Below are positions 2 through 33,892 of a DNA stretch of 33,911 nt, one piece after another. This DNA is from Clostridiales bacterium (GTDB lineage: Bacteria > Bacillota > Clostridia > Christensenellales > CAG-138): assembly GCA_024698505.1 (NCBI GenBank), contig JAILRE010000059.1, forward strand, positions 1-33,911. The letters are read 5' to 3'. Made by a program: the position numbers and the translations under genes. The notes below the pieces were generated by a model. The model was given only the letters and a program-made list of their open reading frames with translations. It made no database searches and was not told the DNA's origin. Numbering within the stretch: position 1 is the first letter of the stretch; the number at the start of each line of letters is the position of its first letter.

Positions 2-636
2 ACCGTTCCGGCTATTGAAATGGATATGACAAAGGACGAGGCCGCCATCGCGCTTGTGGACAGCAATCTGCACAGAGAACGGTTGCTTCCGAGCGAAAAG
101 GCGTTTGCGTATAAGCTCAAGGCGGAAGCAATGGAGCATCAGGGCCGTCGATTAACTTCGGGACAAGTTGTCCCGAAGTCGGATGACAATCGAACGACAG
201 CGGTAATCGGTGAGCAAACCGGAGAGAGCTACAAGACCGTTCAGCGCTATATCCGCCTCACACATCTTATCCCCGCGCTGCTGGATATGGTAGATGACCA
301 GCGTATCGCGTTCTCCGTCGGCGGGGAGCTGTCATTCCTTGACAGCGATATGCAGGCGGCGCTCATGATCGCGATCGATTTGAACGACTGCACGCCGTCG
401 TATGCCCAGGCATGCCGTATGCACAAGGCTGTGAACGACGGGACTATCAGCGAGGAATTGATCGATAGCATCATGGCCGAAGAAAAGCCGAATCAGAAGG
501 AGAAGGTCAGTATCTCAGCGGATGAGCTTCGCGGTTACGTTCCCAACGGTACGCCCTCTGAGATTAAGGCATTTATTCGCAAAGCGTGCGAGCACTATTC
601 GGATTATCTCAAGAGAAAGCGGGAGGAGGTTCGCTG

Positions 637-637
<1 letters not shown>
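2..637 (+). CDS. ParB-like partition protein of a mobilizable element, 5' end cut by window
   Basis: The reading frame is open from base 2, so the gene starts outside the window; 211 residues remain. They match the parB-like gene at 31389-32255 from just after its ParB box II onward, with long near-identical stretches (VDSNLHRE, LPSEKAFAYKLK, RYIRLTHLIPALLDMVDD, DLNDCTPSYAQA, MAEEKPNQKEKVS). A helix-turn-helix lies around AVIGEQTGESYKTVQRYIR. ParB/Spo0J-type proteins bind DNA; in such elements the role (partition, regulation or transfer) is not settled. The gene is first in a compact set with a TnpW-like gene and a serine recombinase. Its stop TGA shares a base with the next ATG, suggesting translational coupling. 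A 25-bp palindrome lies inside the coding sequence at 155-179. Confidence 0.85.
155..179. repeat. 25-bp perfect palindrome inside parB-like gene
   Basis: Arm ACTTCGGGACAA (155-166), centre G (167), arm TTGTCCCGAAGT (168-179): 12 of 12 positions are complementary. It encodes TSGQVVPK, between the N-terminal ParB region and the helix-turn-helix. The other parB-like gene has a 25-bp palindrome at the same codons but with different inner arm bases (31838-31862). No T-run follows, so it is not an intrinsic terminator. It could be a ParB-binding (parS-like) or operator site, or an mRNA hairpin. Confidence 0.85.
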
Positions 638-2579
<1,942 letters not shown>

Positions 2580-2596: not shown

Positions 2597-2635
2597 AAAA
2601 GCGAGTATTGACTGAAATCCGTTGTCAATACTCGC
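2594..2635 (-). terminator. Terminator of the tRNA array
   Basis: Read on the minus strand: GCGAGTATTGAC, an 11-base loop, GTCAATACTCGC, then TTTTCTT. The 12-bp stem is perfect and begins about 2 bases after the CCA end of tRNA-Gly. The plus-strand side lacks a T-run, so it mainly serves the tRNA transcript. Confidence 0.85.
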
Positions 2636-2637
2636 TA

Positions 2638-2711
2638 TGGAGCGGGTAAAGGGACTCGAACCCTCTATCTCAGCTTGGAAGGCTAATGTGTTACCATTAC
2701 ACTATACCCGC
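2638..2711 (-). tRNA. tRNA-Gly(TCC)
   Basis: Cloverleaf read on minus: acceptor GCGGGTA/TACCCGC, anticodon loop CTTCCAA with anticodon TCC, T-loop TTCGAGT, discriminator T and encoded CCA at 2638-2640. Last gene of the array, followed directly by its terminator. Confidence 0.95.
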
Positions 2712-2727
2712 AGTATGAAGTTGTTTT

Positions 2728-3019
2728 CCCGGCAGTTTTTCGCGAAGCAGAATACTGCGATCCCGGGATGCTTTCCGGTTTTCCGAAGGAAAGTGCCGAC
2801 GTCTGCTCGATGGAAACTCCCGGCAGTTTTTCGCGAAGCAGAATACGGCGATCCCGGGATGCTTTCCGGTTTTCCGAAGGAAAGTGCCGACGTCTGCTCG
2901 ATGGAAACTCCCGGCAGTTTTTCGCGAAGCAGAATACTGCGATCCCGGGATGTTTTCCGGTTTTCCGAAGGAAAATTGTGCCGACGTCTGCTCGATGGAA
3001 ACTCCCGGCAGTTTTTCGC
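2728..3019. repeat. 91-bp tandem repeat, about 3.2 copies, between tRNA-Gly and tRNA-Leu
   Basis: Copies start at 2728, 2819 and 2910 with a fourth partial copy at 3004-3019 (CCCGGCAGTTTTTCGC). Spacing is 91, 91 and 94 bases; the third unit has a 3-base insertion (GAAAATTGTG for GAAAGTG). Point differences are few. Each unit contains short palindromes (TTCGCGAA, TCCCGGGA) and an inverted pair CTTTCC/GGAAAG. The period is not a multiple of three, so the reading frames across it on both strands are not genes. On the minus strand it would be part of the tRNA precursor transcript. Confidence 0.9.
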
Positions 3020-3037
3020 TTTGCGGAAAACTGCAAG

Positions 3038-3064
3038 TTCAAAATAGCCGAAGGCTGTTTTGAA
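3038..3064 (-). other. Hairpin directly after tRNA-Leu
   Basis: On minus: TTCAAAACAGCC, TTC, GGCTATTTTGAA, a 12-bp stem with one G-T pair. It starts four bases past the tRNA-Leu CCA. Only a weak T-run follows the stem, so it may be a processing or partial termination signal rather than a full terminator. Confidence 0.5.
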
Positions 3065-3067
3065 ACA

Positions 3068-3153
3068 TGGTGCGGGCGAAGAGACTCGAACTCACACGCC
3101 CGGAGGGCATCGGAACCTAAATCCGACGCGTCTGCCAATTCCGCCACGCCCGC
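3068..3153 (-). tRNA. tRNA-Leu(TAG)
   Basis: 86 bases on minus with CCA encoded (3068-3070). Acceptor GCGGGCG/CGCCCGC, anticodon stem TCGGA/TCCGA around loop TTTAGGT (anticodon TAG), and a long variable arm (GCCC TCC GGGC) as expected for a class II tRNA. Confidence 0.95.
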
Positions 3154-3165
3154 ACGAAAAGGTGG

Positions 3166-3241
3166 TGGTGACCCGTCGGGGATTCGAACCCCGGACACCT
3201 TGATTAAAAGTCAAGTGCTCTACCGACTGAGCTAACGGGTC
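3166..3241 (-). tRNA. tRNA-Lys(TTT)
   Basis: 76 bases on minus with encoded CCA. Acceptor GACCCGT/ACGGGTC, anticodon stem CTTGA/TCAAG around CTTTTAA (anticodon TTT), T-loop TTCGAAT. Twelve bases separate it from tRNA-Leu. Confidence 0.95.
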
Positions 3242-3245
3242 ATGC

Positions 3246-3320
3246 TGGCTGGGGTGGCAGGATTTGAACCTACGATGTGGGAGTCAAAGTCCCATGCCTT
3301 GACCGCTTGGCGACACCCCA
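3246..3320 (-). tRNA. tRNA-Gln(TTG)
   Basis: 75 bases on minus with encoded CCA. Acceptor TGGGGTG/CACCCCA, anticodon stem TGGGA/TCCCA around CTTTGAC (anticodon TTG). Four bases separate it from tRNA-Lys. Confidence 0.95.
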
Positions 3321-3340
3321 ACGGGATCGCCGCTTCCTTT

Positions 3341-3374
3341 CAAAAATAAAGCCTTTGCTTCCTGCAAAAGCTTT
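3341..3374 (-). terminator. Hairpin with T-run between tRNA-His and tRNA-Gln
   Basis: On minus: AAAGCTTTTGC, AGGAA, GCAAAGGCTTT, then ATTTTTG. The 11-bp stem has one G-T pair and a T-run follows, so it resembles an intrinsic terminator. I see no promoter between it and tRNA-Gln, so it is more likely a partial terminator or a processing hairpin that lets some transcripts through to the distal tRNAs. Confidence 0.55.
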
Positions 3375-3381
3375 ACTGAAA

Positions 3382-3459
3382 TGGGGTGAGTGGTGGGGCT
3401 CGAACCCACGACCTCCAGAGCCACAATCTGGCATTCTAGCCAACTGAACTACACCCACC
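3382..3459 (-). tRNA. tRNA-His(GTG)
   Basis: 78 bases on minus, including the extra 5' G(-1) opposite C73 that marks tRNA-His, and encoded CCA. Anticodon stem CCAGA/TCTGG around TTGTGGC (anticodon GTG). Confidence 0.95.
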
Positions 3460-3491
3460 ATAAGGCTGCCGCAGACGACCGCTTGAAAAAA

Positions 3492-3568
3492 TGGCGCGCC
3501 TGCAGGGACTCGAACCCCGGGCCCACGGTTTAGAAGACCGTTGCTCTATCCACCTGAGCTACAGGCGC
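3492..3568 (-). tRNA. tRNA-Arg(TCT)
   Basis: 77 bases on minus with encoded CCA. Acceptor GCGCCTG/CAGGCGC, anticodon stem ACGGT/ACCGT around CTTCTAA (anticodon TCT). First gene of the array, about 30 bases from the promoter. Confidence 0.95.
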
Positions 3569-3598
3569 ACGCCGTCCATACCCTGCCGACGGTAGACA

Positions 3599-29405: not shown

Positions 29406-31109
29406 TCAAGATACGAGCTTGATCGATTTGGGCATGTTCTTGATCTCTTCGATCATTGCGCGGATCTCGTTTTCGTCGGGGATGCTCATCATCCCGACTA
29501 CGGTGAAATAGATATCCACCTTCACATGGCAATGGCCATCGTACTTATCGTTGTTGTGGACTTCGATGCGCTCGATCAGGGAATTGACGAGCGTAGGCGT
29601 AAGCTCCTTGACGTCGGTAAGCTCACGTACGGTCTTGAGAAGCAGCCTGAGATCGATCGCCTTCTGCTCTGCTGAGGCAAGCTGTTCCTTGGCGGATTGA
29701 ACCTTTTCAACGAGTTCCTGCTGCTCATTTTCATATTGGAGCATGAGCTTTTTGTAACGTTCCTCGGAAAGGTATCCGAGCTTGAAATCGGAGTACAGGC
29801 CCGAAATGAGCCGATCGAGATCGTTGATACGCTTTTCGCCGGATTCCGTTAGCTGGACAAGCTTTCGGTGCTCCATCTGACGGAGAACGTCATGCTTCTT
29901 TGCGAGCAGGTATAGGAGCACAGGTTCATAACCCCTTACGAAATCAACGAAGTCGCTTATGGCTTCGAGCACGAGCCTTTCAAGGACGACGTTGCGAATG
30001 AAGTGTATCTTACAAGGTCCGCGACCGTCTTTGTAGTTCGCACAGCGATAGAATTCCTGATTGCGTGTCAGGCTCTTAGCCGCACAGAAATGCAGCTTCG
30101 CTCCGCAGTCGGCACAGAACACCTTGCCGGAGAACAGGCTCGTCCGTCCGGTAGCCGTCGGGCGGATGCGATTCTCACGGAGCTCCTGAACACGAAGCCA
30201 TTGATCCTCCGGGATTATCGCTTCCTGCATATCGGGGATTATCTGCTGTTTCTCCTCGGGATTATAGACCGTCTTGTGAACCTTGTAGCTCACCGTCGTA
30301 GTCATGAAGTTCACAGCGCAGCCGGTGTACTGACGGTTCGAGAGGATGTGAACAACGGTCGAGGAATCCCAGCCGTAGATATCGGCAGGAGTCGGAGACG
30401 AGTGCTTCCTTCCGATCGAATCGTAATACGCCGTGGGGACGAGTACCTTTTCCCTTTGAAGGAGCTTTGCTATCTGCATGGGACCTTTTCCGTCAAGGCA
30501 AAGAGCGTAGATACGTTTTACGACCTCCGCTGCAGGCTCATCGATCACCCATTGCTTGGGATCGGTATCGCTCCGCTTGTAGCCGAAAGCTACGGTGGAG
30601 GATACACGCTCGCCGTGCTCGGATTTCGTTTTCCATACTTGCCGTATCTTCTGACTGGTCTGGGAAGCGTACCATTCGTTGAAGATATTGTAGAAGGGCA
30701 TCATCTCCATACCGGCTCCGGTCCTGCTGTTGACGTTCTCCTGTAAAGAAATGAACGTGACGCCAAGGGACGGATACACCACCTGCGTGAGCCTTCCCAT
30801 CTCCACCTGCTCTCTTCCAAAACGGCTGAGGTCCTTTACGATGACGGTCGATATCTCGCCCGCTTCGATCATCCTTTCCATACGGAGGAAATCGGGACGG
30901 TTGAAGGTCGTGCCCGATACTCCGTCGTCCGCAAAGAACATGTAATTTGTTATACCGTGCTTATTGCAGTAATCCTCCAAAATGGTCTTCTGGTTCTTGA
31001 TGCTGTTCGATTCCATATCGGGATCGCCGCCGAGCTCCCTGTCATCGACGGAGAGACGGCAGTACAGCGCTGTTATCTTTTCTGCGTTTCCGTTATCATT
31101 GTTATTCAT
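29406..31109 (-). CDS. Large serine recombinase (TnpX-like integrase)
   Basis: 567 residues. The resolvase domain has nucleophile Ser20 in YCRLS and VKDLSRFGREQVEMG. A recombinase domain follows, then a zinc ribbon (CADCGAKLHFC ... CANYKDGRGPC), a coiled coil (about 400-500) and a DUF4368-like tail (LIERIEVHNND ... VDIYF). ATG at 31109 has GGAG about 9 bases upstream. Same architecture as the recombinase at 879-2579 but clearly divergent, so the two elements probably use different att sites. Intact. It lies at the chromosome-proximal end of the element, 86 bases after the TnpW-like gene. Confidence 0.93.
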   Translation of the reverse strand: MNNNDNGNAEKITALYCRLSVDDRELGGDPDMESNSIKNQKTILEDYCNKHGITNYMFFADDGVSGTTFNRPDFLRMERMIEAGEISTVIVKDLSRFGREQVEMGRLTQVVYPSLGVTFISLQENVNSRTGAGMEMMPFYNIFNEWYASQTSQKIRQVWKTKSEHGERVSSTVAFGYKRSDTDPKQWVIDEPAAEVVKRIYALCLDGKGPMQIAKLLQREKVLVPTAYYDSIGRKHSSPTPADIYGWDSSTVVHILSNRQYTGCAVNFMTTTVSYKVHKTVYNPEEKQQIIPDMQEAIIPEDQWLRVQELRENRIRPTATGRTSLFSGKVFCADCGAKLHFCAAKSLTRNQEFYRCANYKDGRGPCKIHFIRNVVLERLVLEAISDFVDFVRGYEPVLLYLLAKKHDVLRQMEHRKLVQLTESGEKRINDLDRLISGLYSDFKLGYLSEERYKKLMLQYENEQQELVEKVQSAKEQLASAEQKAIDLRLLLKTVRELTDVKELTPTLVNSLIERIEVHNNDKYDGHCHVKVDIYFTVVGMMSIPDENEIRAMIEEIKNMPKSIKLVS

Positions 31110-31195: not shown

Positions 31196-31402
31196 TCAGA
31201 CAAGGCCGCTTTGGATCAGCATCTGCTTGAACTGATCGAGCACTGTGCGCTTGCCTTCCGTTTTCATATGGGTGGACACAAGGTATTCCGTACCGCCGAT
31301 ACGGATAGAGAAAGAACGGTCGGCGGGGATTTCATGAGTGAGCTCGTTATCGCAGAAACCCTTTACACCGGTAATGGTACGTTTGTTGTTATCTTGCTTC
31401 AT
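31196..31402 (-). CDS. TnpW-like transposon-encoded protein
   Basis: 68 residues. The core IRIGGTEYLVSTHMKTEGKRTVLDQFKQMLI fits the TnpW family known from Tn4451-type mobilizable transposons (a beta-hairpin then a helix); function unknown. ATG at 31402 lies 14 bases inside the end of the parB-like gene, with AAAGGAG upstream, so translation is coupled. The gene at 637-882 is its positional counterpart in the left element. Confidence 0.75.
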   Translation of the reverse strand: MKQDNNKRTITGVKGFCDNELTHEIPADRSFSIRIGGTEYLVSTHMKTEGKRTVLDQFKQMLIQSGLV

Positions 31403-32255
31403 CCGATCGCTGCTCCTTTCCTTTGTCCTTCATATGGCGGTCAAGCATACGGAGGATCGCGCTGCGGATATCCGCCGCCGTGCGGGCGTTCGGAAAGTAG
31501 CGCTGCATTTCGGCCATATTGAAGCTGACTTTTTCCTTTTGATTCGGCTTTTCCTCGGCCATGATCTCGAAGAGCATATCCTCATCGATCGAGCCGTCAT
31601 TCACGGCTTTGTGCATATGGACTGCCTGGGCATATGAGGGAGTGCAGTCATTCAGGTCGATAGCGGTCATGAGCGCAGCCTGCAAGTCACTATCAAGGAA
31701 AGAGAGCTCCACGCCTACTGAGAACGCGATGCGTCCGTCATCCACCATATCTAGCAGAGCGGGGATAAGGTGGGTGAGACGGATATAACGCTTAACTTGA
31801 GTCGGACCGTCATCATCGGAGATCTCTGCCGCGGTCAACTTCGGACCGAATTGGTCCGAAGTCAAATCAGTACGCCTGCCTTGGCGCTTCATAGCTTCGA
31901 GCTTCAGCTTGTAAGCGAACGCCTTTTCGCTCGGGAGGATGTGCTCGCGGTGAAGATTGCTGTCAACGAGCATTATCGCCGCTTCATCGCGGCTGACAGC
32001 TTCAACAACGACGGGGACTTCGGTAAGCCCGGCGAGCTGCGCCGCATGCAGTCGGCGATGCCCGGAGATGAGTTCATATACATCCGAACGGCCCTCTATT
32101 GGCCGAACAATGAGCGGGGACATGATGCCCTGCTCATTGATGCTGTTTACAAGCGCGCTCATCTCTTCGTTATCGAGCACCTTGTAGGGATGTCCCGCAA
32201 AGGGACGGATACTGCTTGCCGGTATCATGACCGGCGCATTGTTTGTGTTTTGCAT
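31389..32255 (-). CDS. ParB-like partition protein of the right mobile element
   Basis: 288 residues from ATG at 32255 (MQNTNNAPVMIPASSIRPF) with AAAGGA 8 bases upstream; the longer frame to 32618 overlaps the relaxase gene and is rejected. The ParB N-terminal domain has box II ELISGHRRLHAAQL (about 61-74). Residues 132-139 (TSDQFGPK) are encoded by the conserved palindrome. The helix-turn-helix region (AEISDDDGPTQVKRYIR) is two residues shorter than in the left copy (AVIGEQTGESYKTVQRYIR), so DNA reading may be weakened or changed. The C-terminal part is near-identical to the left copy. It may act in element maintenance or regulation; this is inferred. Confidence 0.88.
   Translation of the reverse strand: MQNTNNAPVMIPASSIRPFAGHPYKVLDNEEMSALVNSINEQGIMSPLIVRPIEGRSDVYELISGHRRLHAAQLAGLTEVPVVVEAVSRDEAAIMLVDSNLHREHILPSEKAFAYKLKLEAMKRQGRRTDLTSDQFGPKLTAAEISDDDGPTQVKRYIRLTHLIPALLDMVDDGRIAFSVGVELSFLDSDLQAALMTAIDLNDCTPSYAQAVHMHKAVNDGSIDEDMLFEIMAEEKPNQKEKVSFNMAEMQRYFPNARTAADIRSAILRMLDRHMKDKGKEQRSDEAR
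31838..31862. repeat. 25-bp palindrome inside the second parB-like gene
   Basis: ACTTCGGACC (31838-31847), GAATT, GGTCCGAAGT (31853-31862); 11 of 12 pairs complementary, same length and same codons as 155-179. The outer seven pairs are identical to the left copy. Two inner pairs have changed on both arms together (G:C to A:T, A:T to C:G). Confidence 0.85.
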
Positions 32256-32322: not shown

Positions 32323-33612
32323 TTATCGTTCTTCTTCATAGTACATCGGCTTACCATCGATCTCCGGCACGTCCTCGAACGCCTTTTGCATCTTGGGGAT
32401 ATCGGCCTTGATGTCTTCGCAGATACGCAGCTCTCTCCGAACGAAGCGCATTTGCTTTGTGAGCTCGGCGATCTCGGGGATTGGTTCCTTCGTTCTGCGC
32501 TGTTCCTTTCGGAGCTCCGCGCGCCTTTCTTCCAGCTCGGCATATTCAGCGGCGCGTATCGCGGCGTGAGCGTCAAGCTGATCCTCATTGTCGATGCTGT
32601 ATTTATCGAGCAGATCATGCTGTCTGATGTACCGTTTGAGCTTCCGTACCTCTTCGCGGTTCACCCGGTACACGACCTTTTTGCCCTTGCCGATAATGCC
32701 CAGCACATACATCCACGAAAGCACGAGCGCGCTGAGGCCAATGCCTTTATAATATGGAACAGGCGGCTTTTCCGCTCTCGGTATGACAAGCACTTCCGTC
32801 TGCCTCTCGAAGCTGTCCCAAAGCATTTCCTCTATATCGTCCTCGGTCATGCTCTTACCGCCCTTTTTAAGACGCAATGGACGCTTTCCCCCGGGAGGGA
32901 GGAAAGAAGGATACTTGCATCGATGATCGACCGTATAGCCGATCTCCTGCATGAGGCGGTAGAAGTGCTGTACATCGATCGCCCTGTCAATACACTCCCT
33001 CATGTCGAGCTCGAGCATATCCTTCATGGTGAGCTGACCGTCCTTGTGAGCCCGCCACTCTGCAAAGCTCAGGCCGTGACTGCGGGGTTTTTCTATAACG
33101 TAAAGCCCGTGCTCGCGGCAAAGCTCGTCCGATACTTCTCTTAATCGCTGATGATCCTTTTTATGGTTCTCGTACTTTCTTCCCGTTCGGAAGGATACGG
33201 AATTGACCACGAAATGATTATGTATGTTCTTTGTGTTGAGATGGGTGGTAACGAGCACCTCATATTCATCGCCCCACATGCGCCGTGCCGTTTCCATGCC
33301 CAATGCGTGAGCTTCCTCGGGAGAGACCTCTTTACCATAGAAGCTTTGAAACCCGTGATAACAGGTATTGCCTCCGAGCTTGCCGTATCGTTTCTTTGTA
33401 GCCGTCATCCACTCATACGCCTGCTGCCAGGGGCAGTTGAGAGCGGATACGTACATGAGCTTATCCGTCTTACCGGGATCGGAGGTATAGCGTATTACCT
33501 TTTTGAGATCGTCAGACATATCCTCGGGAGCTATCGTCTTCTCCGGATTGACCACGTAACTGATGATTCTTGAGATACTGTCACCGATCGGCCAGAAGCC
33601 GGTTATTGCCAT
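32323..33612 (-). CDS. Mobilization relaxase (VirD2/MobP type)
   Basis: 429 residues from ATG at 33612 (MAITGFWPIG), with GAGGGG 8 bases upstream; the longer frame to 33633 runs into mobC. The N-terminal relaxase domain has a candidate nicking Tyr19 in ISYVVNPEKT and the metal-binding histidines His124, His131 and His133 (THLNTKNIHNHF), with His86 in CYHGFQSF. The C-terminal half is charged and helical (about 330-420). It would nick at oriT and lead single-strand transfer using a helper conjugation system; no type IV secretion genes are seen here. One base separates it from the mobC stop. Confidence 0.92.
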   Translation of the reverse strand: MAITGFWPIGDSISRIISYVVNPEKTIAPEDMSDDLKKVIRYTSDPGKTDKLMYVSALNCPWQQAYEWMTATKKRYGKLGGNTCYHGFQSFYGKEVSPEEAHALGMETARRMWGDEYEVLVTTHLNTKNIHNHFVVNSVSFRTGRKYENHKKDHQRLREVSDELCREHGLYVIEKPRSHGLSFAEWRAHKDGQLTMKDMLELDMRECIDRAIDVQHFYRLMQEIGYTVDHRCKYPSFLPPGGKRPLRLKKGGKSMTEDDIEEMLWDSFERQTEVLVIPRAEKPPVPYYKGIGLSALVLSWMYVLGIIGKGKKVVYRVNREEVRKLKRYIRQHDLLDKYSIDNEDQLDAHAAIRAAEYAELEERRAELRKEQRRTKEPIPEIAELTKQMRFVRRELRICEDIKADIPKMQKAFEDVPEIDGKPMYYEEER

Positions 33613-33613
33613 A

Positions 33614-33892
33614 TCACATCCCCTCGCTTTCAAAGAAGGCGCGGCGGATATCCGTCAGCAGATCCAATACCGCATTTTCCGCTTCGGATGATAACCCGCC
33701 GTTCGTGAGCTCCGAGAGCCTTCCGGTGATATCGAAAAGAGCATCGGTCGGAGCCCCTCGCGGCTCGTATCCCAATGCTCTCTTTCTCACGTATTCGCTT
33801 ATCGTCAGCCCGCACTTTGCGGCTTTCCTGTGGATGGCGTTCTTCTCGGATTTAGTAACCCTCAGCTCCAATCGCTCTTTCTTTTCTTTCAT
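33614..33892 (-). CDS. MobC-like relaxosome protein
   Basis: 92 residues. The N-terminal ribbon-helix-helix pattern (LELRVTKSEKNAIHRKAAK, then GLTISEYVRKRALG) is that of MobC relaxosome accessory proteins, which bind near oriT and help the relaxase nick. ATG at 33892 has AAAGGCGG upstream. The stop TGA is one base from the relaxase ATG. The oriT would be expected to the right, just outside the window. Confidence 0.85.
   Translation of the reverse strand: MKEKKERLELRVTKSEKNAIHRKAAKCGLTISEYVRKRALGYEPRGAPTDALFDITGRLSELTNGGLSSEAENAVLDLLTDIRRAFFESEGM

Follow-up and report, generated by a model that had tools for sequence, protein, structure and literature searches.

Palindromes at a fixed position inside parB genes are probable binding sites of the ParB proteins that these genes encode

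Sites of partition proteins that lie within the gene of the protein itself have been described before. In the Streptomyces coelicolor plasmid SCP2, ChIP-seq and a binding assay placed a parS inverted repeat inside the coding sequence of its own binding protein, ParT (PMC12260392), and the Bacillus subtilis site parS-359 lies within parB/spo0J (PMC4442127). With these two cases, in-gene parS is already known. Canonical parS is even-centred, with the consensus TGTTTCAC-GTGAAACA, and the comparison of Caulobacter ParB with Noc identified residues 173 and 201 as specificity residues that bear on parS/NBS bases 1 and 6, an Arg at 201, as in Noc, going with C6 (PMC7383237). SGI1, a mobilizable element with ParB sites, mimics IncC parABS and uses the partition system of its partner (PMC10954446).

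We analysed a stretch of 33,911 nucleotides (the window), which is the whole of contig C59 in a 2.03-Mb, 64-contig Clostridiales assembly. Two parB-like genes lie near its opposite ends, each containing a palindrome that we predict to be a parS-like site bound by ParB. Copy 1 is at positions 155..179 on the forward strand, with the letters ACTTCGGGACAA-G-TTGTCCCGAAGT and 12/12 symmetric pairs, and copy 2 is at 31838..31862 on the reverse strand, with the letters ACTTCGGACCAA-T-TCGGTCCGAAGT on the coding strand and 11/12 pairs. The first-pass annotation had described 25-bp odd-centred palindromes at the same codons of both genes, with the outer seven pairs identical between them and pairs 8 and 9 from the outside changed on both arms together, and our analysis confirmed each of these points. 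Absent from that annotation was the single broken inner pair of copy 2, an A/C two from the centre. The palindrome spans the codons T-S-G-Q-V-V-P-K in copy 1 and T-S-D-Q-F-G-P-K in copy 2, plus one base in each case. By chance, 33.9 kb of DNA should contain about 0.002 odd palindromes with all 12 pairs intact (33,900 x 4^-12), and the pattern ACTTCGGNNC-N5-GNNCCGAAGT had no other occurrence in the whole 2.03-Mb assembly.

Like SCP2 ParT, the window genes encode a putative centromere-binding protein and appear to contain its site, and like parS-359 this would be a ParB site inside a parB gene; in our case both statements are predictions from sequence. The SCP2 site differs in being an 18-bp repeat bound by a CTP-independent protein, and it was described as a single site (PMC12260392), while here the position is fixed across a family and the site coevolves with its reader. 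Unlike canonical parS, the in-gene sites are odd-centred and 25 bp long. The canonical chromosomal parS, TGTTNCACGTGNAACA, was rejected as an identity for the window sites, which have a different sequence and an odd centre. Contig C5 of the same genome carries a chromosomal parA with two canonical parS (TGTTTCACGTGAAACA) upstream, at positions 3039 and 3075 of locus L193. Canonical and in-gene site types coexist in this one genome.

parB copy 1 (2..637, forward strand) lost its 5' end at the contig start and retains 211 codons, while parB copy 2 (31389..32255, reverse strand) encodes 288 amino acids with a ParB_N domain (PF02195, residues 10-97) and a helix-turn-helix. The two proteins are 66% identical over copy-2 residues 80-284; the truncated copy 1 had no Pfam match. 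The predicted structure of copy 2 has a ParB/Noc/KorB-like fold, so that it combines the PF02195 N-terminal domain with the ParB fold, as expected of the ParB-CTPase family. The GHRR and N-x-H-R-E residues of the N-domain are invariant in 31 sequences, and we take them to be Box II/III-like motifs of ParB-CTPases. The box names follow an earlier description of these motifs (PMC12704722). The site codons fall within a low-confidence stretch of the model (copy-2 residues 128-140, pLDDT under 50), and the protein there is predicted to be a disordered linker joining the N-terminal domain to the helix-turn-helix. Such linker codons could tolerate a sequence that a DNA site dictates. The predicted recognition helix of copy 2 starts at residues 151-155, encoded by the codons P-T-Q-V-K (31791..31805, reverse strand), and the equivalent copy 1 codons by alignment are Y-K-T-V-Q (230..244, forward strand). 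A second specificity residue is Ser179 of copy 2 (codon at 31719..31721, reverse strand). An ungapped alignment by eye places the equivalent Ser codon of copy 1 at 314..316 on the forward strand.

The window genes stand among genes of mobilizable elements. A large serine recombinase gene lies downstream of copy 1 (849..2579, forward strand) and another downstream of copy 2 (29406..31109, reverse strand), while a MobA/VirD2-type relaxase (32323..33633, reverse strand) lies upstream of copy 2, next to a NikA/MbpA-like relaxosome accessory protein (33614..33892, reverse strand). Six tRNA genes are clustered at 2622-3570, adjoining the left recombinase end, and the list of open reading frames contains repeated peptide-like segments between them. 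No match to the ParA family (PF13614) was found on contig C59, where the upstream side of copy 1 lies off the contig. Since no parA stands beside the window parB genes, we do not class the pair as a ParABS partition system. For the 180 relatives introduced below, we searched for neighbours within 3 kb by phmmer, with four parA queries, one relaxase and one recombinase query. At least 53 of the 180 loci have a same-strand parA that lies upstream by no more than 300 bp, at least 79 have a relaxase like that of the window upstream and at least 73 a serine recombinase downstream, all of them lower bounds because some loci have short flanks. The remaining 127 showed no parA in this upstream position. 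In their ParB-CTPase fold and frequent lack of parA, these proteins resemble the orphan ParB-CTPases of mobile elements (PMC12704722). SGI1 differs from the window's elements in that its sites bind the ParB of a helper plasmid (PMC10954446), whereas the latter encode their own.

We looked for the palindrome in related genes between an AFAYK-like and an RYIRL-like motif. In both window copies and in all of 80 loci (the best 80 of 166), the best odd palindrome had 10-12 pairs and lay in the same codon register. A search of 391 genomes of the class added 109 further loci, giving 194 ORFs, of which 187 (at least 175 amino acids, E<1e-60) were kept with alignment anchors. In 180 of these 187, an in-gene palindrome with 9-12 pairs occupied the common codon register; its start lies 23-39 codons ahead of the RYIRL motif, and that motif is within the predicted recognition helix. 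The fixed-register analysis omitted 21 of the 194 ORFs (17 without an anchor and four below threshold). The first-pass annotation had asked whether relatives lack symmetry here: the palindrome is absent from seven of the 187 (L180, L182 and L184-L188) and kept by the rest. None of these seven has a TSxQ-like stretch in the segment inspected, save for a degenerate one in L180. The scanned viral contigs gave no match. Most in-gene sites have the core CAANTTG or CCANTGG and a highly variable flank. Dispersed palindromic repeats of the REP/RPE type occur in many copies across a genome. We rejected this identity for the in-gene palindrome, which is not many-copy in its own genome, in genome G148 or in the 180 loci.

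The symmetry exceeds what the encoded protein requires. Over 135 unique sites, the mean was 11.0 of 12 pairs, compared with 6.8 pairs after synonymous recoding scored as best of region, where 11 or more pairs were reached in four of 5,400 recoded sequences. A fixed-register synonymous null gave 5.35 pairs (128 unique sites). Pairs 4-7 from the centre each show CG, GC, AT and TA, pair 3 is nearly fixed by codons alone, and the excess over the null extends to pair 13 and weakly to pair 14, where it ends. Thus, the covariation of the arms, which had been proposed as a check, is far above the codon null, and the earlier claim that protein selection alone would not keep a palindrome is borne out.

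Such compensatory changes would by themselves be compatible with an mRNA hairpin, an alternative raised in the first-pass annotation, in which a stem in the transcript controls translation, decay or termination. Both window copies fold stably as RNA if transcribed (z -4.7 and -4.9), with the second-from-centre pair formed in the copy 1 fold, but any long palindrome would fold so. The centre of the site discriminates better. The innermost pair is symmetric in 0.93 of the 135 sites, against 0.38 expected under the codon null, although it could not form in a hairpin, where it would enclose a one-base loop; its conservation therefore disfavours an mRNA structure. The second pair is also kept (0.92 against 0.36 expected), but it could form over a three-base loop and does not tell DNA from RNA. 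Among mismatched pairs on the coding strand, G.U (G.T at the DNA level) is rarer than A.C, at 23 against 53. The sites hence show neither the wobble tolerance nor the unconstrained loop of structured RNAs, and a search of the window against Rfam at the gathering threshold returned tRNAs only. Considering also that the arms track predicted DNA-reading residues and that the same palindrome type occurs outside the gene for some ParBs that lack an in-gene site, both described below, we find a hairpin very improbable. The roughly two-to-one excess of A.C mismatches perhaps reflects codon choice.

We then compared the arms with the encoded proteins in 167 of the 180 genes, excluding the truncated copy 1, the two-site locus L152 and 11 near-duplicates. 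A partial Mantel analysis related 231 protein columns to half-site positions 5-9 while controlling for distance elsewhere in the protein. The two top columns were residue 152 (r=0.48) and residue 151 (r=0.41), against a median of 0.00; in the predicted structure, both immediately precede the helix of residues 153-162, which is presumed to be the recognition helix. Column 141, just after the site, also scored r=0.34. The tracking is ordered along the half-site, with residue 151 following positions 7-8, residue 152 positions 8-9 and residue 153 position 9. Asp at residue 152 goes with G at position 9 in 38/38 genes, Asn with C in 36/37, Glu with A in 13/13 and Thr with C in 17/17, while Arg or Lys at 152 goes with G at position 8 in 48/48. 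When the arms were predicted from four residues after training only on ParBs more than 40% different elsewhere, positions 8 and 9 were correct in 91% and 90% of the 167 genes, compared with 29% and 38% when taken from the gene with the most similar remainder of the protein. Copy 1, which stood outside the training set, has the helix Y-K-T.Q and the word CGGGA at positions 5-9, as do all nine Y-K-T.Q genes of the set. These inverted-repeat DNA sites thus have bases that match the specificity residues of the cognate helix-turn-helix, as judged by coevolution, which is what would be expected of a parS. A separate link joins residue 126 (copy 2 numbering) to outer position 2, where Gly/Ala tracks C/A with a partial r of 0.98. 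Base reading by the helix-turn-helix does not explain it, and residue 126 is maybe a lineage marker of the upstream border of an exchanged segment.

A stretch of about 100 bp holds both the site and the recognition helix, and linkage could account for some of the association. With training limited to genes with a diverged linker (identity under 0.2), the accuracy at positions 8 and 9 was 0.75 and 0.69. On a tree built for 165 genes from the remainder of the protein, there were 52 sister pairs. In 24 of these the two genes differ at residue 152, and in all 24 they also differ at positions 8-9, while the sites agree in 23 of the 28 pairs that share residue 152. Six control residues each changed without a change of the site four to nine times in the 52 pairs, whereas residue 152 never did.

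Position 11 follows a second residue. It is C in 20 of the 167 genes, all of which have Arg179, and Arg179 occurs in none of the 147 others; where position 11 is A, residue 179 is mostly Ser, Asn or Thr. No other single residue separates C at this position from the alternatives as well as Arg179 does, and on the 165-gene tree the two labels have only five inferred changes each, fully concordant. In the held-out loci described below, where residue 179 was read except in L223 and L226, C11 came with Arg179 in 7/7 and Arg was absent in 10/10 others. The spacing of 28 between residues 151 and 179 equals that between Caulobacter residues 173 and 201, and by this criterion the two pairs may be equivalents. 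The comparison draws on the equal spacing, on the Noc stretch ITERHARAL, which aligns ungapped with IAFRPAVEL of the relatives, on alignment by eye and on the fold match. A search of the DNA-binding domain against PDB chains by sequence only gave one weak and irrelevant match. Arg at 201 or 179 goes with C in both systems. The Caulobacter and Noc residues bear on half-site bases 1 and 6 (PMC7383237), and likewise residues 151 and 179 here track half-site positions 7-8 and 11. That study compared two specificities (PMC7383237), whereas here 61 distinct words at positions 5-9 in 165 genes were read from the genes themselves.

Some closely related genes differ sharply in the segment that holds site and helix. 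Requiring more than 80% DNA identity in each flank gave 166 gene pairs (window copy 1 excluded, and the pairs not independent), of which 102 differ at four or more of the 24 site bases. In one such pair, L103 and L108, the flanks are 96% and 98% identical and the segment between them 58%. Site and reader were apparently exchanged together as one cassette. Lying side by side within about 100 bp, the site and the codons that specify its reader would be exchanged by a single recombination, which would preserve their match. The window's own genome holds a parB on contig C2 (locus L152, also L194) with two palindromes 36 bp apart, at 1044-1068 and 1080-1104 of L194. The helix-proximal one fits the code of its own helix at 4/5 bases and the distal one at 0/5, so the latter appears to be left over from a former specificity. 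The distal palindrome is also the only other match in the assembly to the copy-2 core, allowing up to three mismatches.

The same exchange invites another explanation, in which the palindrome serves a host regulator, is a recombination hotspot or is an inserted repeat, and is tied to the helix merely by riding on a shared segment. The 102 of 166 flank-matched pairs with differing sites are what this explanation has in its favour. Against it, the arms are predicted less well by the columns of the intervening linker than by residues 151 and 152, and the sister pairs separate residue 152 from the control residues. Moreover, our definition of the exchanged segment leaves residue 179 outside it, on the downstream side, so simple linkage explains the pairing of Arg179 with C11 poorly, and the palindrome is not a dispersed repeat. 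We therefore give such hitchhiking little credence.

We also applied the code to 22 held-out plasmid and phage loci from the top of two lists totalling 70 rows, omitting rows H3, H4 (both E. faecalis) and H54-H56. An in-gene palindrome was present in 19 of the 22. At positions 5-9, the code was right for 74/95 bases, compared with 53/95 for the majority word, a baseline counted by hand; two of the scored sites (L216 and L219) are also present in the training set. The 74/95 combines 62/80 from 16 sites with 12/15 from three loci, and for five of the 22 loci the anchors were typed in.

Four of the seven parBs that lack an in-gene site have a palindrome with the CAANTTG core in the searched stretch, where 0.0-0.23 were expected per stretch. 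In G072 it lies five bases past the parB stop codon and matches 5/5 code bases, and in G325 it lies eight bases past the stop codon and matches 4/5. G026 has two intergenic palindromes about 1.6 kb downstream of parB, with 3/5 and 4/5 code bases, and the palindrome of G242, about 3.4 kb from parB, is a poor fit at 2/5. For the other three, no external site was found in the stretch searched, which was only 3.7 kb long in one case. By locus, the external-site scan found nothing for L180, L182, L184, L189, L190 and L191, nor within the short flanks of L218, L231 and L232, and one weak 9-pair match for L192. In G072 (L188 and L200), two further copies of the 15-base core, each with one mismatch, occur in L200.

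Considering that the arms change in step with the predicted DNA-reading residues of the ParB, the palindrome is likely that ParB's own docking site, and we conclude that it is very probably a parS-like site for the protein encoded by the surrounding gene. Of the binders named in the first-pass annotation, the element's own ParB, acting in a parS-like or autoregulatory way, is thus strongly supported by covariation and residue coevolution, both of which are read from sequences, while we found no support for another regulator. A ParB dimer would bind the palindrome symmetrically, with one helix-turn-helix per arm; residues 151-155 would read the inner half-site (positions 5-9) and residue 179 position 11. 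As for other ParB-CTPases, the site would be the loading point on the element for a CTP-dependent sliding clamp. Where parA lies just upstream, the site would serve partition, a plausible role in the parA-bearing elements. In ParA-less mobilizable elements like those of the window, regulation, or partition with a ParA borrowed from another element in the way that SGI1 relies on the IncC system (PMC10954446), seems more likely.

A narrower role is that of an operator rather than a centromere, with ParB bound in the gene as a local roadblock that represses its own gene and the neighbours without clamp spreading or partition. The 127 loci with no parA detected just upstream are consistent with this, and the ParB of NAH7 activates conjugation genes from its parS (PMC12421886). 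At L164, a near-copy of the in-gene palindrome (1634-1658, 3/24 mismatches) stands just upstream of parA in a promoter-like position, possibly as an autoregulatory operator. However, a second near-copy near parA was found in only this one of 180 loci (about 5.6 kb each), and at least 53 relatives have a parA closely upstream on the same strand. The PF02195 domain, the invariant GHRR and N-x-H-R-E residues and the ParB/Noc/KorB fold also point to a CTP clamp. We regard a pure operator as possible but rather unlikely. Beyond the parS-like site itself, we lean towards seeing site and helix as a self-contained address cassette of about 100 bp that generates an open-ended series of private ParB-parS pairs with a code readable from the genes, and in which ParA-less elements may borrow the ParA of co-resident conjugative elements.

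A literature search, with most subscription papers and bioRxiv outside its scope, found no report of the site family, of the fixed in-gene position or of the coevolution with the reader, and these we consider new within the literature searched. In-gene sites and site-reader covariation are likewise absent from the available text of the work on orphan ParB-CTPases (PMC12704722). Because one gene contains both a predicted site and its reader, each gene records a protein specificity alongside its matching DNA target. The 61 words in 165 genes provide ready-made natural data on the ParB recognition code, by which the sites of uncharacterised ParBs become predictable, and they offer many potentially orthogonal ParB-parS pairs for imaging. 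The sites further show selection on DNA dictating the make-up of a protein stretch, T-S-x-Q-x-x-P-K, and they suggest how mobile elements switch partition or regulatory specificity with the match of site and reader intact. Sites differing by two or fewer bases were found in 8 of 71 same-genome parB pairs, compared with 3.9% of 2,932 other pairs. Avoidance of similar sites among ParBs that share a genome was thus not found, which argues against a simple story of incompatibility avoidance.
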